Shown: piece after piece, positions 3,753 to 45,150 of the stretch
How the letters are laid out: each line of letters begins with the position of its first letter
How positions within the stretch are numbered: the first letter of the stretch is position 1
From: Bacteroidaceae bacterium
Lineage (GTDB): Bacteria > Bacteroidota > Bacteroidia > Bacteroidales > Bacteroidaceae
Assembly: GCA_017483765.1 (NCBI GenBank)
Contig: JAFUVE010000042.1
Coordinates: 1 to 45,288 of the forward strand
Reading direction: 5' to 3'
DNA: 45,288 nt
The notes under the pieces: generated by a model
The model's database searches: none
Seen by the model: the letters and a program-made list of their open reading frames with translations, nothing else
What the model was told of the DNA's origin: nothing
Position numbers and translations under genes: made by a program

Positions 3753-3780
3753 AGTTGAGAGTTTAGAGTTGAGAGTTGAG
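3753..3780. repeat. Heptamer leader repeat upstream of the Nfn-like gene
   Basis: Four perfect tandem heptamers read AGTTGAG, AGTTTAG, AGTTGAG, AGTTGAG on the plus strand. They lie 14 bases upstream of the minus-strand ATG at 3739, so the mRNA leader would carry CUCAACU/CUAAACU repeats. Similar arrays precede serS, the PspC gene and carB. Confidence 0.8.
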
Positions 3781-3861
3781 AGTATACTTGTACTCTTTCA
3801 AATAAGATTATACTTTAACTCCTTTCATTCTGGTTGTTCAAATCCTCTCGGTTTTCTGAAA

Positions 3862-5151: not shown

Positions 5152-5171
5152 TTTATTGTTTGACTTCTTTT

Positions 5172-5236
5172 AGTTGAGAGTTTAGCGTTGAGAGTTTAGC
5201 GTGATTTTAGTTTTGTGTTTAGAGTTGAGAGCTGAG
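5172..5236. repeat. Heptamer leader repeat upstream of serS
   Basis: Units AGTTGAG, AGTTTAG, CGTTGAG, AGTTTAG run from 5172 to 5199. After a degenerate stretch come AGTTGAG and AGCTGAG at 5223-5236. The array begins 20 bases before the serS start codon and fills most of the gap to the next gene. Confidence 0.75.
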
Positions 5237-5279
5237 TGTGATTTTTGTTTGGAATTGAGGGATTCTCTGGCTGTCAATC

Positions 5280-9995: not shown

Positions 9996-10454
9996 GTGAT
10001 TTTTATTCATATCTGAAAAAAATCTTCATATTTATTTTGTTTAGATGCTCCTTTCTCGCCGAAGAGGAAACGCTTTTTAAGTGAAAAGTGAATAATGAAA
10101 AGTGAATAGTGCCATGCGGACGGTTTTTTTCGGATGAAAATCTAACATGAATCTGAACGTGAATTTTATTAGAAAGAAAATATTGTTTTGATAGGTTTTA
10201 ACATGAATGACCATGAATGTCCACTCTAACTTTGCAGTGTCAATGAGATTGGTGAGCACGAATGATTCATAAATGAATTTTTAAAATTTTCATGACGATA
10301 GAAATAACGCCTTTACTGGCTGAATGGTTACGAAAAATGGCTTATTGTGTCAAAAATGTTAAAAAAGGTCAAAAAATTGACTGTATTTTTGCTTCATTAG
10401 AAAATTTTATTTTAATTTGCATTCGATAACGAATTGATATGAAATTCCAAGTTT
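9996..10454. other. AT-rich intergenic region before the sigma factor gene
   Basis: No credible gene is seen. The region holds a short repeat at 10081-10111 and promoter-like boxes TAACTTTG at 10227-10234 and TATTTTTG at 10384-10391 on the plus strand, either of which could serve the sigma factor gene. It also holds several CATGAAT words around 10145-10220. The short minus-strand frame at 10077-10259 is repeat-derived. Confidence 0.5.
10081..10111. repeat. GTGAAAAGTGAATA-type intergenic repeat
   Basis: The block holds two copies of a GAAAAGTGAATA unit in tandem. The 15-mer GAAAAGTGAATAGTG recurs at 17811-17825, far away and also intergenic, so it is a dispersed repeat of this genome. Confidence 0.6.
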
Positions 10455-15529: not shown

Positions 15530-15536
15530 ATTTTTT

Positions 15537-15611
15537 TAGAGTTGTTTTAGTTGAGAGTTTAGAGTTATTTTAGTTGCGAGTTTAGAGTTGAGGGTTTAGA
15601 GTGATTTTAGT
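15537..15611. repeat. Heptamer-type leader repeat upstream of the PspC gene
   Basis: Units of the form AGTTTAG, AGTTGAG and GTTTTAG repeat with small spacers directly upstream of the minus-strand ATG at 15529. A shorter trace of the same repeat is at 15705-15720, after the PadR gene. It belongs to the family found before serS, the Nfn-like gene and carB. Confidence 0.7.
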
Positions 15612-32295: not shown

Positions 32296-35200
32296 TCATG
32301 AATCGGAATCTTCTGCAGCCAAATGGAAGATCTTGTCGGGTTGTAGGTCGTAAATCTTTGTTCTGCTCCTGACATATTCGCTGACGATGTGGAACCATTC
32401 TTTTTGCTTGCCTATCATGGCGGGATATTTCTCATTGAACTGTTCCTGACAAGACCGGACGATATTCAGAATAGAAGTCCTTTCTTTCATCGCCAACATA
32501 GACTCAATATGAGCAACCATCTCATCGTCGTCTCTTACATCAGTCAGTACCGGCGATGTTGCGATGGCATATTCAGCTGCGTATTCCTCGTCGTCGGTCC
32601 ACTCCTCGCATTGCTTGAGCACGATGTTGAGTGCGTAGTCTGCTTGTTCAGGCGGATAGTGGTATTTTTTCAACAACCGTTTCACAAGCTTCCGCATTCC
32701 AGCCCGTGCCGACTCCTTGTGCTGCCAGTCTATGGTGCGGTTTTTGCGTAGCGTCTCGGTCAGCTCCTTGGTCATCGCCACGAGTTCATCGTTTTCATAT
32801 ATGTCTTTAACCGCCTGTGGGCGCGTCAGGGCGTCATAGAATGCCTTTTCCTCGTCGGAAAGGCCCAGTTCGTTGCCCTGTTCTTCGGAGGCCTTGATTT
32901 CAGAGGCCAGTTTCAGGAGTTCCTGAATCACTTCCTCGTTGGTTAGCATCCCCTTGAGATAGTTGCTCAATGCGCTGTTCAGCAGCTCTGAGAATTTCTC
33001 ACTCTGCACGATGTTCTTATGCTGGAATGCCCTCACCCTGTCTTTGAGCAGGTTCTCCAGAATTTGGATGGAGATGTTCTTCTCCTTCATCCTGGAAAGT
33101 TCGGAAAGGAAGGCGGGGTCATTCAGTGAGAATTCCTTTCCCTCATTTTGGAAAAGATTGATGACTCCTTCGCTCTTCACGCTTTGTTTCATGAGCTCTC
33201 GGATACGCCGGTCGATGTCTTTCTTCGAGAACTGTCCTTTTGCTCCCAGTCGGAGAATCATCACGCGTACCGTCTCAAAGAACGCACATTCCCACCGCTG
33301 TTCGTCAGTCAGCAGGCTTCTGCAGAGTGTTATGGACTGATGCAGTGCGGTGGCTTGTCTCATGTATTCGTCTTTCTTCTCCTTCCGCTCAATGTCCAGC
33401 ATGAAGTTCGTGCCGCCCTTGATGATCTCCGCACGTTTTAGGTCGGATGTGTCCTTGAACTGGCTATAGTCAAACCCATGCATGAGGTCGCGGCATATTT
33501 CCAGTTTCTCCTGGAAAATCTTCAGCGCTGTGGATTTGATGTTGGGGTCGCCGAATTTGCGCTTGTCGTTCGTGGAATAGAACTTCATCGCCTGTTTCAA
33601 AGCCTGCGCGATGCCGATGTAGTCCACCACCAGGCCACCTTCCTTCCCATTGAACACACGGTTCACTCGGGCGATGGCCTGCATGAGGTTGTGGCCGCTC
33701 ATAGGCTTGAACACATACATGGTGGCCAGCGACGGCACATCGAATCCCGTGAGCCACATGTCCACGACGATGGCGATTTTCATCGGGTCGTTGTCGTCCT
33801 TGAATTTCTTCGCCAGCTCCTGCTTGTATTGCTTGTTGCCTATGATGTCGCGCCATTCTTCCGGGTCGTTGTTACCGCTTGTCATCACGCATTTCACCTT
33901 CTCCGTCCAGTCGGGACGCAGCTCAAGTATGCGCTTGTATATCTTGATGGCGATAGGACGGCTGTACGCCACAATCATCGCCTTGCCGGTGAGCTCCTGC
34001 TCGCGGTAGTTCTCATAGTGGCAGAGGATGTCGCCAACGAGAGAGTCGATCGTGGCATCCGCGCCGAGTAGCTCTTCCAGATGCGACAAGTCTTTCTTGC
34101 TTTTGCTCAGCTGCTCCTCTTCTGCTCCTTCCGCTTCCAGCAGGTCATATTCCTGGTCGATGAGCGCCAGTGTCTTTTCGTCCAGCTTCAAGTTGATCAC
34201 ACGGCTTTCGTAATACACGGGGACAGTGGCATGGTCGAGCACGCTCTGTGTCATGTCGTAGACGTCGATGCAGTCGCCGAACACCTCTATGGTGTTGCGG
34301 TCTTTCAATGCCACAGGCGTACCTGTGAATCCGATGAACGATGCATGAGGTAGGGAGTCGTGAATCATGCGTGCCGTGCCCACTCTTATCTGTCCGGTCT
34401 CCGGGTTCACTTTCTCTTCAAATCCGTATTGTCCTCTGTGTGCCTCGTCGCTCATCACGATGATATTGCTTCGCGTGGAGAGCGGGGTGTCATACTCCTC
34501 AAACTTCTGCATCGTCGTGAAGATGATGCCGTTGGCAGTTCGTCCTTCCAGGAGTTCTCGGAGATGCTGACGGGTGGAGGCCTGGACAGGAACCTGCCGC
34601 AGGAAGTCTTTGCATTTGGCAAACTGCGTGTAAAGCTGGTTGTCGAGGTCGTTGCGGTCGGTGATGACCACGATTGTAGGTTGTGTCACTGCTGTTTGCA
34701 GCAGGTGGGCGTAGAACACCATCGACAAGGACTTTCCGCTTCCTTGCGTATGCCAGAACACGCCGATTTTGCCGTCACCCTGTACGGCGCATGCCGTTCG
34801 GTCGATGGCTTTTCGGACGGCAAAGTATTGGTGGTAGCCAGCCAGTATCTTGTAGTCCTTTCCTTCGTCCTTGCAATAGCACACGAAATTCTTGATGATG
34901 TCCATCAGTCTGTCTTTTCTGAACATTCCCTCGAAGAAGACGTCGAAGTTCACCACTTCGCAGTTCTCATACACGCCGTCCTTGGATTTCCACTGCATAT
35001 AGCGGTCTTCGCTCGACGTGATTGTGCCGGCTCTTGACTCAGCCATGTCGCTCATCACGCAGAACACATTGTAGGTGAACATACCCGGTATTTCCTTCAT
35101 GTAGTTCTTCAGTTGGCGGTAAGCGGCGCTCGCGTCTGTATCCTCCCTTGAGGGGGATTTCAGCTCCATCAGCACGACGGGCATTCCGTTAAGGAACAGA

Positions 35201-35625
35201 ATGAGGTCTGCCCGTTTCTTTGACTTCTCCACGTAAGTCCATTGGTTCACCAATAGGAAGTCGTTACGATCGATATGTTCGTAGTCGGCGAGGTAGACGA
35301 TATCGTTTTTCAGCTCATGTCCGTCGTGGAACGTCACCTCAATGCCATGTTGTAGGTAGTCCATGAACAGCTCGTTGTTCTGCACCATGTTTCCGGCCTC
35401 GATATGCAGCAGTTTCCTTTCTGCCTCATCAATGGCGGTTGACGGCAGCCCCGGATTCAACACTGTCAGCATCCCGTGCATCCGCTCCTTATAAACTGGG
35501 CAGTAATAGTCTTTCTCCGCGTATGTGCTTTGGATGTCGTAACCGTTGGCATAGTCAAAGCCCAATCGTTCCGTAAACAACTGGATTAGCGTCTGTTCGT
35601 AATGGTCTTCGTTATAGTCTGACAT
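32296..35625 (-). CDS. hsdR: Type I restriction enzyme R subunit
   Basis: HsdR is the motor and nuclease subunit of the type I restriction complex. In the 1109-residue product the N-terminal nuclease fold has Asp140 (SKKRADLIL) and the pair Glu154/Lys156 (VLMELKSP). The Walker A motif HTQGSGKS is at residues 292-299 and DEAH at 393-396. Helicase segments such as TTMQKF, GFTGTP and GFDVPSLATMYVFKPM follow. The length is normal, with no sign of damage. It is the last gene of the island, separated from the four-helix gene by a CTAG repeat array that lies 22 bases upstream of its ATG. It ends opposite nadD. Confidence 0.95.
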   Translation of the reverse strand: MSDYNEDHYEQTLIQLFTERLGFDYANGYDIQSTYAEKDYYCPVYKERMHGMLTVLNPGLPSTAIDEAERKLLHIEAGNMVQNNELFMDYLQHGIEVTFHDGHELKNDIVYLADYEHIDRNDFLLVNQWTYVEKSKKRADLILFLNGMPVVLMELKSPSREDTDASAAYRQLKNYMKEIPGMFTYNVFCVMSDMAESRAGTITSSEDRYMQWKSKDGVYENCEVVNFDVFFEGMFRKDRLMDIIKNFVCYCKDEGKDYKILAGYHQYFAVRKAIDRTACAVQGDGKIGVFWHTQGSGKSLSMVFYAHLLQTAVTQPTIVVITDRNDLDNQLYTQFAKCKDFLRQVPVQASTRQHLRELLEGRTANGIIFTTMQKFEEYDTPLSTRSNIIVMSDEAHRGQYGFEEKVNPETGQIRVGTARMIHDSLPHASFIGFTGTPVALKDRNTIEVFGDCIDVYDMTQSVLDHATVPVYYESRVINLKLDEKTLALIDQEYDLLEAEGAEEEQLSKSKKDLSHLEELLGADATIDSLVGDILCHYENYREQELTGKAMIVAYSRPIAIKIYKRILELRPDWTEKVKCVMTSGNNDPEEWRDIIGNKQYKQELAKKFKDDNDPMKIAIVVDMWLTGFDVPSLATMYVFKPMSGHNLMQAIARVNRVFNGKEGGLVVDYIGIAQALKQAMKFYSTNDKRKFGDPNIKSTALKIFQEKLEICRDLMHGFDYSQFKDTSDLKRAEIIKGGTNFMLDIERKEKKDEYMRQATALHQSITLCRSLLTDEQRWECAFFETVRVMILRLGAKGQFSKKDIDRRIRELMKQSVKSEGVINLFQNEGKEFSLNDPAFLSELSRMKEKNISIQILENLLKDRVRAFQHKNIVQSEKFSELLNSALSNYLKGMLTNEEVIQELLKLASEIKASEEQGNELGLSDEEKAFYDALTRPQAVKDIYENDELVAMTKELTETLRKNRTIDWQHKESARAGMRKLVKRLLKKYHYPPEQADYALNIVLKQCEEWTDDEEYAAEYAIATSPVLTDVRDDDEMVAHIESMLAMKERTSILNIVRSCQEQFNEKYPAMIGKQKEWFHIVSEYVRSRTKIYDLQPDKIFHLAAEDSDS

Positions 35626-35643
35626 GATTGTTTTTTTTTAGGA

Positions 35644-35742
35644 TGACTAGTTAGACTAGGGAAACTAGTTAGACTAGTATGACTAGGGAAACTAGTATGA
35701 CTAGGATAACTAGTTAAACTAGGATAACTAGTAAAAACTAGC
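35644..35742. repeat. Tandem 9-bp CTAG array upstream of hsdR
   Basis: CTAG occurs at 35647, 35656, 35665, 35674, 35683, 35692, 35701, 35710, 35719, 35728 and 35738. Ten are exactly 9 bp apart and the last is 10 bp away. The consensus unit on the plus strand is WRACTAGKD. Units with ACTAGT and units with ACTAGG alternate irregularly. It fills the space between the four-helix gene (ends at 35750) and hsdR (starts at 35625), so it is transcribed as part of the hsdR leader. CTAG is usually a rare tetranucleotide in bacterial DNA, which makes the array stand out. Confidence 0.92.
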
Positions 35743-35749
35743 AATATTT

Positions 35750-36436
35750 CTATTTGTTTTGATTTTTCAGTTTTTCGATTTCAGCCTTTAGCTTTTCGAT
35801 TTCCTCTTTTAGTGTTTTGATTTCCTGTTCTTTTGCGTCGATAGTGGCGCGTTGGATGTTACGATAGCCGAGCCGTGCCGCTGTCATACGCTCACGTATT
35901 CCGCCGTTTTCCTTAAAGTCTTTTTCGAGGTAGCGCTCATAGCTCACCATCATTTTGTCTGTGAAATGGCAGAGAGAGAGGGCTACGTTGCACATCTCCT
36001 CAGCGTTCCATCGGTAGAAATAGGGCTCATAGAATTCAGACTTGTTGTGTATTCGGCAGAAATCCAGCATTTGATGGTAACGTGGATGATCATTGCCCCA
36101 TCTTATGAGCTGGCGTGTAAGCAGATAGTCTATATAATCCTCTCGAAGTTCCCTCAGTGAGGCTCTTGCCACATTGATTAACTTCATTTCCATTTCTATG
36201 GATGTGACGCCGTCGGCCATTCCCTCTACGATGTTTTGCTTTCCTGATCGTGCGGCCTGCACCATCTGGTCGACTGTGCGGTCGCCATATTGGGGCAGGA
36301 ACCTTTGACAGAACACGTATGTCATCATGTAGAGTGCCACAGTCTTCTGATAGAAGAATAGCGACTCCCAATTTTTTTCATGCCGTAATATGGTGTCAAT
36401 CACTACAGCTGACTGTAAAGGATTATGCTTTTCCAT
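35750..36436 (-). CDS. Four-helix-bundle protein with suffix domain and coiled-coil tail
   Basis: Residues 23-110 match the four-helix-bundle family related to the 23S rRNA intervening-sequence proteins and to the Avd accessory protein of retroelements. The key segment is QMVQAARSGKQNIVEG at 57-72. Residues 111-195 look like the four-helix suffix domain known in Bacteroidetes. Residues 199-228 form a Lys/Glu heptad coiled coil (EIKTLKEEIEKLKAEIEKLK). No catalytic residues are seen, so binding of RNA, DNA or a protein partner is the likely mode. It lies between hsdS and hsdR inside the restriction island, and its 3' end abuts the CTAG array. The DNA for the tail is an approximate 21-bp repeat. 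Confidence 0.8.
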   Translation of the reverse strand: MEKHNPLQSAVVIDTILRHEKNWESLFFYQKTVALYMMTYVFCQRFLPQYGDRTVDQMVQAARSGKQNIVEGMADGVTSIEMEMKLINVARASLRELREDYIDYLLTRQLIRWGNDHPRYHQMLDFCRIHNKSEFYEPYFYRWNAEEMCNVALSLCHFTDKMMVSYERYLEKDFKENGGIRERMTAARLGYRNIQRATIDAKEQEIKTLKEEIEKLKAEIEKLKNQNK

Positions 36437-36489
36437 ATGACTAATTTCACCTTTTATGTTTATCTCTCTTTTATAAATGCGTTTAAAAC

Positions 36490-36501
36490 GAATTTACAAG
36501 T
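36490..36501. repeat. 12-bp direct repeat, copy 1 (end of hsdS)
   Basis: GAATTTACAAGT covers the hsdS stop codon. The same 12 bases occur at 38824-38835, just upstream of the DUF1016 gene, so the pair brackets the DUF1016-hsdS segment of about 2.3 kb. Confidence 0.5.
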
Positions 36502-37654
36502 GTATTTCACCTGGATTTAGCTCTCCGGACATCAGACGAGGGAGTAGGGTGTCACGAAGTTGAGCGAGGCGGCGGGATTCTTCCTCTCTTCCCCGTCTCG
36601 TTTCGTAAAGAGAGCCGATTATTGGGCGAATTTCGTTAATTACATTTTTTGGAGGTAAAGCCAGCACTAACTTTTGCATATTTGCTTGGCTTAACTTTGC
36701 TTGAACAGCGCCAGTGACAAGATGCTGAATATTGGTTATTGATAGTAGCACATGAACCATTTCTGTGCTAAACCCGTTCTTTCCTCGCAAGATATGAGCG
36801 TGATTGTTAACCCAGAATTTGCCCCATACATATTGCATGTATGGTAAGCCATCTTCTTTTACCACACTTCCATCTTCCCCTATGAGAGTATAAATCCCAT
36901 CAAAGATAAAGTTGTCAACATAGTCCATGCATGATGTTGCTCCATAATATGGATATATACGTTCCATGTTCTCCCTATCTTTTCCAGACAGTGGTTTCCT
37001 TAGTTTGTCGTAGATGGATGCAACATCAAATAGAGTCCCCACCTTCCATCCTTTCGGTATCATCCCAATTTCACTTTCTTCAAATTCTCCATCTTTAAAA
37101 GGTTCAAAATCCACAAACCAGGACTTGAACAACGCCTGTGCCTGTTGCTCTAAATTATCATTTATCCGCCTGTTCACCTCGATTTTGTCATCAAGAGATT
37201 TGAGGATGGATGCAATTTTCTTTTGTTGTTCAAAAGGTGGTAATGATATATTCCATTGCAAAATTTGTTTTTTGTCCCCTCTTGGCATTTTTGTACCTTT
37301 TGAGCCTTTCATGACATATTCAAAGAAAGAATCCTGGCTCATTAGGTAATAAAGGAAAAGTGAATCAACTTTATTGTTTGCTCTATAGCAAATAACATCT
37401 GCAGAACAGCCACCTTCTTTATTTGCTCTCCAGATTTTTTTAAAATAAGGACGAATGTTTGAAATCAATATATCATCTTCTTTAAAATGGATACAATTAC
37501 CAGCTGGGATTCCTGAAGACTTGGAAACTCCAGCTTTGTTTTGGAGCATATTCTCTGTTGATATATAATTATAATCATCTAGAACAGATGTGTCTGTTTT
37601 ATCTGTTATAACGATAACAAGGTCCTTTAATTTATATTCTTTCCACTGTTCCAT
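36494..37654 (-). CDS. hsdS: Type I restriction-modification specificity subunit
   Basis: HsdS reads the DNA target for the methylase and restriction complexes. The 386-residue product has the usual two halves. The first target-recognition domain covers about residues 1-150. A central conserved helix follows with LPPFEQQKKIASILKSLDDKIE and AQALFKSWFVDFEPF. The second domain starts at IPKGWKVGTL and ends with the distal helix containing RRLAQLRDTLLPRLMSGEL. The gene is visibly richer in A+T than its neighbours, as is common for exchanged specificity genes. It starts two bases after the DUF1016 stop. A recombinase gene in the same island suggests that this gene may be shuffled; no second hsdS copy is in the window. 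Confidence 0.93.
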   Translation of the reverse strand: MEQWKEYKLKDLVIVITDKTDTSVLDDYNYISTENMLQNKAGVSKSSGIPAGNCIHFKEDDILISNIRPYFKKIWRANKEGGCSADVICYRANNKVDSLFLYYLMSQDSFFEYVMKGSKGTKMPRGDKKQILQWNISLPPFEQQKKIASILKSLDDKIEVNRRINDNLEQQAQALFKSWFVDFEPFKDGEFEESEIGMIPKGWKVGTLFDVASIYDKLRKPLSGKDRENMERIYPYYGATSCMDYVDNFIFDGIYTLIGEDGSVVKEDGLPYMQYVWGKFWVNNHAHILRGKNGFSTEMVHVLLSITNIQHLVTGAVQAKLSQANMQKLVLALPPKNVINEIRPIIGSLYETRRGREEESRRLAQLRDTLLPRLMSGELNPGEIHL

Positions 37655-37656
37655 AG

Positions 37657-38817
37657 TTAATCCTTTTTGTGTTGAAGCTTGAAGAATTCCTTTTGCTGTT
37701 CGATTTCACGTCGCAGTTCTTCCTTGGTCGGCATATAAGTAAGATACTTGGCAGCAAAGAGTTGGTCGTTGTCGTTCAGTACTGAATAGCGGGCTATATC
37801 CTCGTCGGTTTCAGCACACAGTAAGAGCCCTATGGTTGGGTTGTGCCCTTCTGGCCGTACCATTTCATCGTACATTCTTACGTACATATCCATCTGTCCC
37901 ACATCTTGATGGCTTAGTTTGGAGGTTTTGAGGTCAATAAGTATAAAACTGCGAAGATGATAATTATAGAAAACCAGGTCTATGTAATAATCTTCCTTTT
38001 CTGTGTGAATATGCTTCTGACGGTCAACAAAAGCAAAGCCTTTTCCTAATTCCATGAGAAACAGAACAAGATGATCAATGAGACTTTGCTCTAAATCAGT
38101 TTCCGTATATTTTGCATTGTTCTTGAATCCTAAGAACTCTGCCACTACAGGATTCTTCAGATATTCGAGTTTGTCTTGCAATGGTGCTGTAATGGTCTGC
38201 ATTTCATTATGCACTGCCTCTTGATTCTGCGACTGCAAAAGCCGATGGTAGTACTGCGAAGACACATTGCGCTGCAGGGTACGTGTACTCCACATTTCGC
38301 GTGCTGCCTCCTGCTCATACCATGCCCTACCTCTGTCTGTATTCTCTTGCAGAATAATGCTATAATGGGTCCACGATAGTCTAAGTTGTTTCGTGGGTTT
38401 CATGGAATTGAAAAAGTCTGTATGTTCCAATAATCCCATCAGCGATGGGATTTTTTGAGATTGTCCCGTCAGTGATGGGACAATCTCAAATTCTCCATAC
38501 GTTGATTGGAACATATTTGGGAATGTTTTATAAAATGAAATAAATCTGTAGAGATTGTTTCTTGAATACCCACTTCCGTATTTATCAGTTAATTCCTTGG
38601 CAAGGTTTTTGACTGTTTGCTCGCCATATTCAGCGCGTTGTTCTTTAAGTACCTCATGATGAATGCGTATCCCCAATAGCCAATTACGCTTAATTAACGT
38701 CTCATTGACCAGACGATATGCCTCAGCCTGAGCCTGTTCTATGATAGTGCAAGCATCCTTAAACAACATGTTATTCTGCTGTTCAGCCTTCACTGCTATA
38801 ATATTGTTCTCTTCCAT
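37657..38817 (-). CDS. DUF1016/YhcG-type PDDEXK nuclease-domain protein
   Basis: The 386-residue product has the DUF1016 architecture. Its N-terminal helical part includes NWLLGIRIHHEVL, YGSGYSRNNLYRF and LSWTHYSIIL. The C-terminal PDDEXK-type nuclease domain has YYIDLVFYNYHLRSF followed by ILIDLKTSKL near residues 276-300, which supplies the catalytic Asp and the Asp-Leu-Lys triad. Such genes are often found inside Bacteroidales type I restriction loci; a defence or accessory role is inferred. Residues 111-129 (FEIVPSLTGQSQKIPSLMG region) are coded by a duplicated palindrome and appear as an insert. It is AT-rich like hsdS and overlaps its expression unit. Confidence 0.88.
   Translation of the reverse strand: MEENNIIAVKAEQQNNMLFKDACTIIEQAQAEAYRLVNETLIKRNWLLGIRIHHEVLKEQRAEYGEQTVKNLAKELTDKYGSGYSRNNLYRFISFYKTFPNMFQSTYGEFEIVPSLTGQSQKIPSLMGLLEHTDFFNSMKPTKQLRLSWTHYSIILQENTDRGRAWYEQEAAREMWSTRTLQRNVSSQYYHRLLQSQNQEAVHNEMQTITAPLQDKLEYLKNPVVAEFLGFKNNAKYTETDLEQSLIDHLVLFLMELGKGFAFVDRQKHIHTEKEDYYIDLVFYNYHLRSFILIDLKTSKLSHQDVGQMDMYVRMYDEMVRPEGHNPTIGLLLCAETDEDIARYSVLNDNDQLFAAKYLTYMPTKEELRREIEQQKEFFKLQHKKD
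38432..38487. repeat. Duplicated palindrome inside the DUF1016 gene
   Basis: Two perfect hairpins follow each other in the reading frame. AATCCCATC/GATGGGATT lies at 38432-38452 with a 3-base loop. GAGATTGTCCC/GGGACAATCTC lies at 38457-38487 with a 9-base loop. Both contain the related core TCCCRTCAGYGATGGGA, 30 bp apart, so this is a 10-codon tandem duplication that keeps the frame. Confidence 0.8.
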
Positions 38818-38823
38818 AAATGA

Positions 38824-38835
38824 GAATTTACAAGT
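38824..38835. repeat. 12-bp direct repeat, copy 2 (upstream of DUF1016 gene)
   Basis: GAATTTACAAGT is repeated exactly here, 7 bases upstream of the DUF1016 start codon. See the partner at 36490-36501. Confidence 0.5.
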
Positions 38836-38885
38836 CTGTTTAGCGTTTTTTTTTCTATTTGTTTAAACTTATTTCACTGTAGAGT

Positions 38886-39878
38886 TCAGCTCAAAAATTT
38901 TCTGTGAGAGATTTTTACGTTGTTTTGGCTTACCATGGCATAATGCATGGTGGTATCAATTTTCACATGGCCCAATAATTTCTGCACCTGTTCCACTGGC
39001 ATACCTTTGTCTATGGCCATTGTAGCCAACGTTCTTCTGAACTTATGTGGATGGACTCTTGGAATCTTCGCCTCTTTTCCTATTTTTCTCAATCTAACTT
39101 CCACTCCAGATATCTGCAATCGCCGATGAGGCTTGGCGAGCGAAACAAACAAGGCTTTGTTTTTGTCGCGTCTGCTATTTAAATATTCCTGAAGATGTAT
39201 TTTTGCCCTTGCATTGAAATACACGATCCGCTCTTTGTTTCCCTTTCCATAGACCAGACACTCACGCTCGTTGAAATTGATATCATCTCTGTTTAGCTTC
39301 ACGAGTTCTCCCACGCGCATACCAGTAGAAGAAAGGAGGTCTATGATAGCGAGGTCGCGTGTCTCCTTGCATATGTCTCGCAGATTTTCAAGCGACTCAT
39401 CTGACAACACTTCCTTTACTTGTGCGCCTGTCTTCACTTTATGGATTCTTCGTACGGGACTTTTTATGATATAGTCTTCTTCTTCAAGCCAGGCAAAGAA
39501 CGAAGAAAAGATGCGCCTTACATTGTCAACCGTCACCCTGCTTGCTTTTCGTTTTCGCTGGAATACAGCAAGATATGCTCTGATGTCTTCTGTCGTATAT
39601 GTGGTCACGCGTTTGGGCATCGTTTTGTATAGCTGCTGAATCATGCTACCATAATAACGGATTGTCGGTGTGCTGCAACCTTCCACCTGCTTCGCGGACA
39701 GGAACGACCGTAGCAGCTCTTCATTGCTTTCTTCCGTTTTCTGCGTTTTTACCTCGTCATTTGTGACAGTATATTTCCCGACAACTTTAAGCAGTACTGC
39801 ATTCAGCTTTGCTATCTGTTCTACTGTGAGAATATCAGCCATTTCATTGCTGATTTCCAAAATAAGTTTCTCTTTCAT
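38886..39878 (-). CDS. Tyrosine recombinase of the restriction island
   Basis: This 330-residue integrase has the complete catalytic set: Arg188 (TGMRVGEL), Lys212 in the GKGNKER hairpin, His278-x-x-Arg281 (HPHKFRRT), His304 (LLGHVKI) and Tyr313 (MHYAMVS). An N-terminal SAM-like core-binding domain spans about residues 52-135, and residues 1-50 are an extra charged segment. It is the kind of recombinase found beside hsdS genes in Bacteroidales, where it inverts specificity segments. Its upstream gap holds a near-perfect inverted repeat that could be its core site. It lies 8-55 bases downstream of hsdM in the same direction. Confidence 0.93.
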   Translation of the reverse strand: MKEKLILEISNEMADILTVEQIAKLNAVLLKVVGKYTVTNDEVKTQKTEESNEELLRSFLSAKQVEGCSTPTIRYYGSMIQQLYKTMPKRVTTYTTEDIRAYLAVFQRKRKASRVTVDNVRRIFSSFFAWLEEEDYIIKSPVRRIHKVKTGAQVKEVLSDESLENLRDICKETRDLAIIDLLSSTGMRVGELVKLNRDDINFNERECLVYGKGNKERIVYFNARAKIHLQEYLNSRRDKNKALFVSLAKPHRRLQISGVEVRLRKIGKEAKIPRVHPHKFRRTLATMAIDKGMPVEQVQKLLGHVKIDTTMHYAMVSQNNVKISHRKFLS

Positions 39879-39925
39879 AATTCTTCGATATAATTGGTTG
39901 TTTTATTCAATAATAACGAAGAATT
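39879..39925. promoter_or_regulatory. Inverted repeat shaped like a recombinase core site, between hsdM and the recombinase gene
   Basis: The left arm AATTCTTCGATATAATTG (39879-39896) and the reverse complement of the right arm (39908-39925) agree at 16 of 18 positions. The spacer is the 11 bases GTTGTTTTATT. The layout resembles the arm-spacer-arm form of tyrosine recombinase sites. It could also be an RNA hairpin covering the recombinase start codon. Confidence 0.5.
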
Positions 39926-39933
39926 AGATTTTT

Positions 39934-41442
39934 CTATATTTTAAAACCAATACTTGCCAGCTGCTTGCGTATTTCCTCTTCCAGCTGATGGCTTTGCTCA
40001 AACAGTCCGCTGAGCTCGGTGGTGAGGCGGCTCATCTTCTCTTCGAAGGGCTCGCCGTCGTCTTCCTGCTCGGCAATGCCGACATATCGGCCGGGGGTTA
40101 GGATGAAATCCTGTGCTTCCACTTCCTCAATCGTCTTGACCGCGCAATATCCTTTCTCATCTTTGAGCGTGCCGTTGCGGTAGTCGGTGAAGGTCTGAGC
40201 GATGTGGTTGATGTCGTCGTCGGTCAGTTCACGTAGTTTACGTGAGACCATGGTGCCCATGTTGCGGGCGTCGACGAACACCATCTTTCCCGGCTGAGTC
40301 TTCTGCCGGCTGAGAAACCATAGGCATACGGGTATGCCAGTGCTGTAGAACAACTGGCTGGGTAAAGCCACGATGCCCTCTATCAGGTCTGCCTTCAGTA
40401 TGTTCTTGCGGATTTCTCCCTCACCGCCCGTCTGGCTGCTCAGTGAGCCGTTGGCAAGCACCAGTCCGATTCGCCCCGTCGGGGAGAGATGGCTGATCAT
40501 GTGCTCCAGCCAGGCGAAGTTGGCATTTCCCTGTGGCGGTATGCCATATTTCCATCGCACGTCCTCCTGCAGTTTGTCGGCTCCCCAATCGCTCATGTTG
40601 AACGGCGGGTTCGCCATCACGAAGTCCGCTTTCAGCGTTGGGTGCTGGTCCTCAAAGAATGTGTCAGCGTTCTTCTCGCCGAGGTTCGCCTCAATGCCAC
40701 GAATGGCGAGGTTCATCATCGCCATCTTTCGGGTGTTGGCGTTGATTTCCTGTCCGAAAATAGAGAGGTTCTTGATGTCGCCCTGATGATGTCGCACGAA
40801 GTCGGCACTCTGCACAAACATACCGCCGCTGCCCATAGCCGGGTCGTAGCAACGGCCTTTGAACGGCTGCAACACGGCGACTATCGTACGCACGATACAG
40901 GACGGTGTGAAGAACTCACCTGCATTCTTCCCTTCGAGCGACGCAAACTTGGAGAGGCAGTACTCGTAGGTGCGTCCAAGCAGGTCTTTGTTTTCTTCCT
41001 GCTTGCCCAGCTCTATGGTGTTGGTGAAGAGGTCGACCACGTCGCCCAACCGGCGTTTGTCCAGTTCCGGCCGCGCAAAGTTCTTTGGCAGGATGCCTTT
41101 CAGCCGGACATTCTCTTTCTCGATTTCCAGCATGGCATTGTCGATGACCTTACCGATTTCGGGTGTGTGGGCGGCTTCAGCAATCACCTTCCACCTTGCG
41201 TCCGCTGGGACATAGAATATGTTTTCAGAGACGTACTCATCCTTGTCTTCCTCGAATCCGTCGCCTTCATCCACCAGCTGCTGATGTTTCGCGTCGAAAC
41301 AGTCTGAAATGTACTTCAGGAAGATAAGTCCCAATACCACGTTCTTATACTCAGCTGCGTCGATGGAGCCGCGGAGCAGGTCGGCCGCTTTCCATATCTT
41401 GTCCTCAAATCCGAGGTCAGCAGTGTTGTTTTTCTTTGCCAT
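39934..41442 (-). CDS. hsdM: Type I restriction-modification DNA methyltransferase subunit
   Basis: HsdM transfers a methyl group from S-adenosylmethionine to adenine in the target DNA. From the ATG at 41442 the protein has 502 residues. The N-terminal helical domain begins FEDKIWKAADLLRG and includes EYKNVVLGLIFLKYISD. The SAM-binding motif is CYDPAMGSGGMF and the catalytic motif NPPF is at residues 278-281 (ADFVMANPPFNMSDW). All parts are intact. I prefer 41442 over 41508 because the added 22 residues are not typical of the family. It is the first gene of the island, with a promoter-like box at 41625-41632, and lies behind the carB terminator. Confidence 0.95.
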   Translation of the reverse strand: MAKKNNTADLGFEDKIWKAADLLRGSIDAAEYKNVVLGLIFLKYISDCFDAKHQQLVDEGDGFEEDKDEYVSENIFYVPADARWKVIAEAAHTPEIGKVIDNAMLEIEKENVRLKGILPKNFARPELDKRRLGDVVDLFTNTIELGKQEENKDLLGRTYEYCLSKFASLEGKNAGEFFTPSCIVRTIVAVLQPFKGRCYDPAMGSGGMFVQSADFVRHHQGDIKNLSIFGQEINANTRKMAMMNLAIRGIEANLGEKNADTFFEDQHPTLKADFVMANPPFNMSDWGADKLQEDVRWKYGIPPQGNANFAWLEHMISHLSPTGRIGLVLANGSLSSQTGGEGEIRKNILKADLIEGIVALPSQLFYSTGIPVCLWFLSRQKTQPGKMVFVDARNMGTMVSRKLRELTDDDINHIAQTFTDYRNGTLKDEKGYCAVKTIEEVEAQDFILTPGRYVGIAEQEDDGEPFEEKMSRLTTELSGLFEQSHQLEEEIRKQLASIGFKI

Positions 41443-41822
41443 AATAACGTTTGGAAAAACAGATTTTCCCATGAAGTGCTCTACAAGCCGATTAAACTTA
41501 TATAACACTTCGAGGGAAATCTGGTATTAATAGATTAGCCTAAGTTTCTGTTGGTCATTTAGCCAATAATGTGCTTGACAGTTTTTTCTGTACTCGCACA
41601 TTGCTCTTTTTTGATTTTTCGTTGCAAATATAATCATTTTTTTGCAATCTCACTCCTGTTTCCCTCCTAAATATTTCTCGGCAAGGGTGCGCAGATATTT
41701 TGTTGCTTTGTCCATAGATTCAGTTCCGAAGTGTCCTGCAGATTGGATTTAATAAAAATAATGCTTTGTGTTTCATAATAATTAGATGTTAAAAAGTTTG
41801 TTAATGATGTTTCTATAAAAAA
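41443..41822. other. Intergenic region between hsdM and carB
   Basis: Besides the promoter-like box at 41625-41632, this AT-rich stretch shows no gene or clear repeat. It marks the upstream edge of the restriction island. I found no obvious direct repeats matching the other edge near 32250. Confidence 0.5.
41625..41632 (-). promoter_or_regulatory. Promoter-like -7 box of the restriction island
   Basis: The minus strand reads TATATTTG followed by CAACG. It lies about 180 bases upstream of the hsdM start codon and is the only such box between carB and hsdM. No well-spaced -33 TTG was found. Confidence 0.5.
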
Positions 41823-45095: not shown

Positions 45096-45113
45096 TAGCT
45101 TTTATTATTTTTA

Positions 45114-45150
45114 AAGTTTAGAGTTTCGTGTTTAGAGTGAATTTAGTTTA
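45114..45150. repeat. Heptamer-type leader repeat upstream of carB
   Basis: Words AGTTTAG, GTGTTTAG and AATTTAG repeat in the carB leader, ending where the MITE-like element begins. It is the most degenerate of the four heptamer arrays. Confidence 0.6.

Follow-up and report, generated by a model that had tools for sequence, protein, structure and literature searches.

A phased CTAG array beside a four-helix-bundle protein gene in a Bacteroidaceae genome: a candidate pairing of a small protein with its own address word

Short palindromes that recur at a fixed step and are cooperatively bound by small dimers are known from the MetJ and TrpR operators (the trp operator contains CTAG), and S23/IVP-type proteins form a widespread family. 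The arrays reported here differ from the MetJ/TrpR operators, which have an 8-bp step, few units, few sites and other protein folds. In the REP/TnpA-REP systems (RAYT, REPtrons), a gene is flanked by its own short repeats, copies of which are dispersed, and the protein groups have co-evolved with the repeats (PMC8266576, available part of the text). Intergenic TAACTGA heptamer repeats have been described from Beggiatoaceae, Cyanobacteria and five Bacteroidetes, and their author raised the idea of an unidentified, perhaps mobile, repeat-binding protein (PMC4679880, available part).

As far as the available parts of these sources go, the present locus shares with REPtrons the flanking of a gene by its own dispersed repeats; however, TnpA-REP proteins belong to the HuH superfamily of enzymes and act on individual REP hairpins, whereas here a four-helix bundle, without any HuH-type transposase domain in NCBIfam or Pfam searches of the flanked gene, accompanies phased rows of 4-8 bp words. 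The TAACTGA repeats are likewise short, phased and dispersed between genes, but they are exact 7-bp repeats for which no partner protein was identified, whereas a core with variable spacer, a step of 8-10 bp and a linked gene are found here (PMC4679880, in the part available). In contrast to the S23/IVP proteins treated in the accessible part of PMC4990558, the gene is not located in a 23S rRNA gene, and unlike the Avd proteins of diversity-generating retroelements (PMC10053308, accessible part) it had no reverse transcriptase with template or variable repeats among the six proteins encoded near the array in the window or the neighbours scanned. The accessible parts of these two papers contained no mention of phased arrays accompanying S23/IVP or Avd proteins, those of PMC6749651 and PMC10333322 nothing on such arrays or the protein, and no description of CTAG arrays in Bacteroidales or of a four-helix-bundle protein with cognate phased arrays was found among the titles and abstract starts listed in searches of open-licence literature. 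A small helical protein with address-tag arrays in gut bacteria thus looks like an undescribed system next to the known heptamers, REPtrons and S23/Avd proteins.

The window, i.e. the whole stretch of 45,288 nucleotides (45 kb) that was analysed, contains the array and its neighbours as follows:

35647..35741, no strand: CTAG array of 11 units (nine 9-bp steps, one 10-bp step), from CTAG count and spacing
35750..36436, minus strand: gene of the four-helix-bundle protein with suffix domain (P0001, 228 aa), TIGR04258 and TIGR02436 above cut-off, model pLDDT 85.1, nearest solved folds 2gsc and 2rld
35858..36004, minus strand: TIGR04258 suffix domain of this gene, from the profile match
35756..35899, minus strand: C-terminal long helix of the protein (residues 180-227), from the structure model
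32296..35625, minus strand: hsdR, type I restriction subunit with the array in its leader, TIGR00348 at 549 bits
36494..37654, minus strand: hsdS, specificity subunit, flanking the four-helix-bundle gene opposite to hsdR, PF01420
37657..38817, minus strand: DUF1016/PDDEXK (YhcG) gene of the same operon, PADLOC candidate PDC-S02, from Pfam and PADLOC
38886..39878, minus strand: tyrosine recombinase of the same operon, from NCBIfam and Pfam
39934..41508, minus strand: hsdM, methyltransferase subunit, from NCBIfam and Pfam

The eleven CTAG units start at 35647, 35656, 35665, 35674, 35683, 35692, 35701, 35710, 35719, 35728 and 35738, with variable bases in the five positions separating them. The position listing bore out the initial annotation with respect to the number of units, the first start, the variable spacers and the 9-bp register with a single 10-bp step; the ten 9-bp steps that it had counted are in fact nine. 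Its further statement that the array occupies the hsdR leader and abuts the end of the four-helix-bundle gene was also confirmed: 8 bp separate the array from the stop codon of this gene, and 21 bp separate it from the hsdR start codon. Elsewhere in the window CTAG is rare, with six copies outside the array and 17 in all, whereas 100 dinucleotide shuffles averaged 101. Chance or base composition as the source of the array was rejected on the basis of these shuffles and of the GATC, GTAC and CATG controls in related genomes (see below). A GCCATGCGGACGG-like motif recurred beside arrays in spacers of the same genome (window 10112-10125; L219:8318; L220:2936 and 2982; L228:891).

The assignment of the neighbouring gene to the TIGR02436/TIGR04258 four-helix-bundle families, as initially proposed, held, both NCBIfam scores exceeding the curated cut-offs (67.2 bits versus 40 for TIGR04258, 33.1 bits versus 24 for TIGR02436); the score for Pfam 23S_rRNA_IVP (28.0) was below the cut-off of 33.8. 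The predicted structure and its nearest solved folds place the protein in the S23/IVP four-helix fold. NCBIfam and Pfam detected neither a nuclease nor a polymerase domain in it, and PADLOC assigned no family to the protein or to two of its relatives. Purifying selection on the four-helix-bundle protein is indicated by the dN/dS values of three gene pairs (0.004/0.098, 0.025/0.42 and 0.022/0.33).

In the genome of origin (G000; 3.13 Mb on 105 contigs, 70% complete), runs of three CTAGs spaced 9 bp apart were counted 171 times per strand, those of the reversed word GATC 0 times. An array-start pattern gave 66 matches; 34 stretches and the window were examined and yielded 44 arrays, a lower bound because the start pattern can miss arrays, and 276 of the 316 CTAGs in the examined DNA (251.5 kb) were located inside arrays. 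None of these 44 arrays, and none of 56 in the sister genome G012 (in which 40 of the 44 listed regions were covered), lay in genes called by a purpose-made ORF caller; coding repeats (9 bp corresponding to three codons) were rejected on this basis, yet 30 of 134 arrays in loci of named genomes were inside called genes. Divergent gene pairs rarely enclosed an array (5/90 versus 37/234 array-free gaps in the G000 and G012 loci; 5/89 versus 61/313 in the named loci). A special class of array-neighbouring genes was also discarded, nine of ten neighbours giving an NCBIfam family at E 1e-10; SecA, adenine phosphoribosyltransferase, serine acetyltransferase, FabG and L-fucose permease are among the families found. 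When phased 4-mers of any kind were counted in 405 intergenic pieces of the G000 and G012 loci, period 9 was present in 113, a figure inflated because the loci were selected for CTAG arrays, and period 7 in 91, all other periods from 5 to 15 in at most 12 (period 14), with 0-1 in one order-1 shuffle. Arrays of other cores at 9 bp were also encountered in CTAG-selected loci (CCGG, TCCGG, AGCCCCAT and ATAG; L120:6426, L197:6262, L156:5089 and L135:2436).

Four phased CTAGs were detected in 15 of 120 related genomes, with 175 matches in G012, 119 in G000, 104 in G029 and 60 in G005, and gave 0 matches in four of the genus's 13 genomes; the control words GATC, GTAC and CATG occurred in two, two and four of the 120 genomes, with one match each. 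In an even draw of 392 genomes from the wider order, CTAG matched in 13 and the GATC control in 10, the summed matches being 280 versus 23; three of the 13 CTAG-positive genomes had identical or near-identical units. Among named genomes, at least 114 CTAG-array stretches were collected, mainly from gut and rumen Bacteroidales, but also from Victivallales, Kiritimatiellae, Verrucomicrobia and a few others; one chain comprised 45 phased CTAGs (L110:5493, Verrucomicrobia contig), in a locus where no four-helix-bundle gene was detected. A viral origin was considered and rejected: the pattern occurred in 41 stretches of viral_contigs, none a relative, and phages gave no match. The plasmid search returned one record.

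A TIGR04258 match was present in 23 of the 120 relatives, at 32 places, 30 of which were used together with five loci of genus g108 as a set of 35 gene loci (two of the 35, one a short fragment, are omitted from flank counts and tree). Scored as at least four phased copies at a period of 8-10 bp within 150 bp, an array adjoined 25 of 33 genes of the set, and 19 of 27 after removal of six picked through their array; the controls gave 3 of 31 for genes from comparable loci and 1 of 30 for genes of the window (p 1.4e-9). With three or more copies, 32 of 33 genes were accompanied by an array; three copies alone are weak evidence because the controls reach 6 of 31 and 6 of 30. Phased CTAGs themselves, at 9, 10 or alternating 9/10 bp, lay beside the gene in nine of 30 loci including that of the window. 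In the opposite direction, 8 of 114 CTAG-array loci among the matches listed held the gene, all eight within 44 bp of an array, for which random placement of the gene in those loci gives a probability of 9e-8. Further cases agree: five of six sampled species of g108, which belongs to another family, have one CTAG array, situated 3-11 bp upstream of a homologous gene in 5/5 species, and a gene of Prevotella nigrescens, found by protein search alone, is followed 47 bp downstream by four CTAGs at 9-bp steps, the surrounding 105 kb containing one further array (three units) and three more CTAGs. The gene and the array are thus linked. The enrichment of four-helix-bundle genes near arrays, which the initial annotation had put forward as a test of its proposal that array and gene belong together, was observed from genes to arrays (19/27 versus 4/61 for the combined controls) and from arrays to genes, and its proposal, which took the array either for a multi-site platform bound by the four-helix-bundle protein or for a mobile repeat family marked by it, is sustained in both directions as well as by g108.

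The contact can be very close, the TAG stop codon forming the first array unit in 10 of 23 CTAG-labelled genes, and at eight loci (L319, L328, L303, L321, L323, L123, L107 and L166) the repeats belonging to the gene stand on either side of it. One CTAG-clade gene with a 9-bp array at its end also has, some hundreds of bp upstream, long rows of CTAG at an 8-bp step (L100:3971-4420). Of five TIGR02436 genes in G000, three of them TIGR04258, only one adjoins a CTAG array. Beside other genes, other words were recognized (labels set by eye; L304, with three CCTARG units, was placed with CTAG, and L310 and L312 with none):

GTCnGAC at 9 bp: L031, L302, L303
GAGTACTC at 9 bp: L308
CTATAG at 9 and 10 bp: L325, L328
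AACGTT at 9 bp: L323
ACGT at 8 bp: L321
TCGA at 8 bp: L327
CCCA-type at 9 and 10 bp: L314, L316, L032
GTCC/GGAC at 9 bp: L306, L309, L313
AATT at 9 bp: L311

In a tree of 41 proteins, the 23 rows labelled CTAG and the two labelled CTATAG (14 of these 25 picked through their array, 11 not) formed one clade with support of 100/98, and other protein clades adjoined other words. The CTAG label required three changes on the tree compared with a shuffled mean of 13.6 (0/500 as low), the complete set of labels 12 changes compared with 17.7 (0/200 as low). Because different clades go with different words, word and protein would have diversified together. A forward test was based on GTCnGAC, the word beside a second TIGR04258 gene of G000: among the 120 genomes, matches to GTCnGAC arrays numbered 255 in G000, 168 in G012, 28 in G027 and 1 in G055, with 0 in all others and 0 for the control, and GTCnGAC-flanked proteins had previously been seen only in G000, G012 and G027. 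CTAG arrays occurred in eight of ten genomes with a CTAG/CTATAG-clade gene and in 7 of 110 without (p 3e-7, genomes counted as unrelated). The main exception is G012, which has the most CTAG arrays and no CTAG-clade gene found in its 70%-complete assembly; G018 and G049 possess a CTAG-clade gene and no four-unit 9-bp array. The match between protein clade and word and the co-occurrence at the genome level are evident from the tree and these genome counts. Where the word is a palindrome, a dimer bound to double-stranded DNA is suggested; the CCCA and GTCC groups, with their non-palindromic words, show that symmetry is not required.

Comparison with the sister genome revealed a fast turnover of array units. 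Twenty-eight G000 arrays, i.e. those whose flanking genes matched examined G012 loci, have a G012 counterpart beside matching genes, with equal unit number in only three pairs; steps of 18 and 27 bp occur within arrays, and the flavour can switch at one site from an ACTAGG type in G000 to a TCTAGA type in G012 (ACTAGG/CCTAGT-flanked cores: 64/188 in G000 versus 14/231 in G012, p 2e-13). In the 19 pairs without a gap opposite the G000 array, and with exclusion of the triple that had served to locate the G012 array, the two genomes agreed in 137 of 152 CTAG cells, 288 of 401 spacer positions and 1256 of 1465 flank positions; the core is hence estimated to be better kept than the spacers (p 1e-6), its excess over the flanks reaching only p 0.08. 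The 211 G000 spacers were of 92 kinds and so are not the identical units of a microsatellite or STRR; together with their rewriting between the sister species, this agrees with the initial statement that the array is unlike plain slippage. The cysE protein was found in nine of the 13 genus genomes and its upstream DNA examined in eight, of which G000 and G012 have a CTAG array in the cysE leader and the other six have none; one of these six CTAG-free leaders carries three 9-bp units of another word. In the cysE leader of G010 (L278), an array of ~22-bp units (CAGTGAAACAA...GTACC) occupies the place of the CTAG array of G000 and G012.

The window gene is part of a type I restriction operon, sitting between hsdS and hsdR; hsdM and hsdS are separated by a DUF1016/PDDEXK gene and a tyrosine recombinase, an arrangement also known from phase-variable type I systems. 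Restriction-modification genes were direct neighbours in 14 of the 35 loci (the Pfam scan of neighbours covering the set other than L101, L302 and the g108 loci). The order hsdS - gene - hsdR was found in the window, L304, L305, L318, L324 and L323, with the array between gene and hsdR; hsdR lies on the downstream side of the gene in L315, L322 and L166. In the orders hsdR - gene - hsdM (L309, L313) and hsdM - gene - hsdS (L325, L327), the array is upstream of the gene and not before hsdR, and in L317 an Eco57I-type methylase precedes the gene. Between the window and L166, HsdR identity is 35% and bundle-protein identity 65%; the HsdRs of L304, L324 and L323 share 56-80%, with arrays of the CTAG, CTAG and AACGTT types, respectively. 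The GC content of window positions 35001-40000 is 41.6%, compared with 48-54% in the other 5-kb steps, which suggests a recent transfer of that part of the operon. Based on these identity mismatches and the low GC content, gene and array appear to travel jointly, as a cassette, from one operon to another, and the question arises why type I restriction operons host these cassettes so frequently.

Taken together, array and neighbouring gene are in our judgement likely to be two parts of one system, the array being a row of the cognate word of the protein. The four-helix-bundle protein would itself recognize the word, in oligomeric form and progressing unit by unit along the array, most likely in double-stranded DNA, although a role in RNA is conceivable, and this recognition may control or insulate neighbouring genes. 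The row found at the edge of almost every such gene would probably act as operator or leader, in the window also as hsdR leader, and in some genomes rows of the same word would additionally be dispersed over tens of intergenic sites; the one array at the gene in g108 and in G009 hints at an original operator whose copies would have increased in certain lineages. Direct recognition of the word would be the simplest cause of the linkage, the clade-word match and the outcome of the forward test, and a mobility of gene and array is presumed. Against this reading, the gene is missing from the neighbourhood of most dispersed arrays (43 of 44 in G000, within ~3 kb on either side where the contig allowed; 106 of 114 CTAG-array loci among the matches listed), seven of the 120 genomes, including G012, combine CTAG arrays with the lack of a detected CTAG-clade gene, and the order-wide numbers of positive genomes are similar for CTAG (13/392) and GATC (10/392). 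The non-palindromic CCCA and GTCC words weaken a simple dimer-on-palindrome picture, and the CTAG cells are not clearly better kept than the flanks.

A selfish dissemination in the manner of REPtrons, with the protein helping to copy or spread its own array to no gain of the host, competes with the preferred reading over purpose and not over the pairing, and appears to us a conceivable but distinctly less probable option. It would account for the genes flanked by their repeats on both sides, the dispersed intergenic copies, the patchy array counts (0 to 175 within one genus), the unrelated operons in which the gene resides and its occurrence in a Kiritimatiellae contig; however, the protein has no detected nuclease or polymerase domain, and recent jumping is not seen because the 28 G000 arrays keep their place in G012. 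Less readily accepted, and in our opinion unlikely, is a reading in which the arrays act at the RNA level, within intergenic transcripts to which an Avd-like RNA-binding protein attaches. Comparison of the predicted model suggested a fold common to Avd and the four-helix-bundle protein, and arrays are scarce between divergent genes; array RNAs also fold better than shuffles (z <= -4.3 in 9 of 11), which is no independent evidence because phased palindromes fold so by construction. Imperfect units show no consistent strand (nTAG:CTAn on the sense strand 17:8 in G000, 16:28 in G012 and 14:6 in named genomes), and the non-palindromic words of two groups cannot form a ladder. A strand-specific recognition of UAG was discarded for the same leaning of imperfect units in different directions in the three sets.

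That the protein is a restriction controller, similar to a C protein, with the array as hsdR operator, would fit the restriction-modification neighbours and the position of the array in the hsdS - gene - hsdR loci; but 21 of 35 loci have no such neighbour among the genes scanned, the neighbours differ in g108 and Prevotella nigrescens, the array is not before hsdR in the R-gene-M and M-gene-S orders, and the dispersed arrays are left without account, so that we regard this explanation as rather improbable. The least credible of all, with hardly any probability left to it, is an ordinary minisatellite drift, in which slippage produces the repeats and no partner exists. The unequal unit numbers in 25 of the 28 orthologous pairs, the 18- and 27-bp steps, the identical or near-identical units in three of the order-wide positive genomes and the at least 120 viral stretches that contain CTAG arrays without the gene (with more uniform spacers, distinct-spacer fraction 0.46 versus 0.68-0.74) are in its favor; the two-way linkage, the clade-word match, the GTCnGAC forward test and the single matches of the control words in few relatives, where CTAG arrays reach 175 matches, are opposed to it.

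If array and protein are paired as preferred here, one branch of the S23/IVP-type family gains a defined partner that lends itself to testing, a prominent group of intergenic repeats in gut Bacteroidales is accounted for, and a natural set of proteins with different words and steps of 8, 9 and 10 bp would let the evolution of nucleic-acid recognition be studied. With about even chances, the pairing may extend to an as yet undescribed class of two-part genomic systems: S23-fold proteins would each own an evolvable short address word, with a phased row at the gene and rows dispersed in some lineages, spacers and unit numbers being rewritten while word and step are kept, heptamer arrays next to relatives lacking the suffix domain would represent a 7-bp branch, and the whole would constitute an address layer that organizes or insulates the chromosome or tempers restriction, or else a selfish repeat without transposase. 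The 7-bp arrays, which are common between genes of G000, are possibly such a heptamer branch of the same system, a view based on two genes only in a genome where heptamers are frequent anyway. The two G000 TIGR02436 genes without suffix domain (L034 and L035, on contigs C45 and C103) adjoin 7-bp arrays of the ATTCTTC, TTTACTA and AAATCGT types, and in the window 7-bp arrays are located at 3753-3783, 5168-5250, 15535-15602 and 45110-45138.
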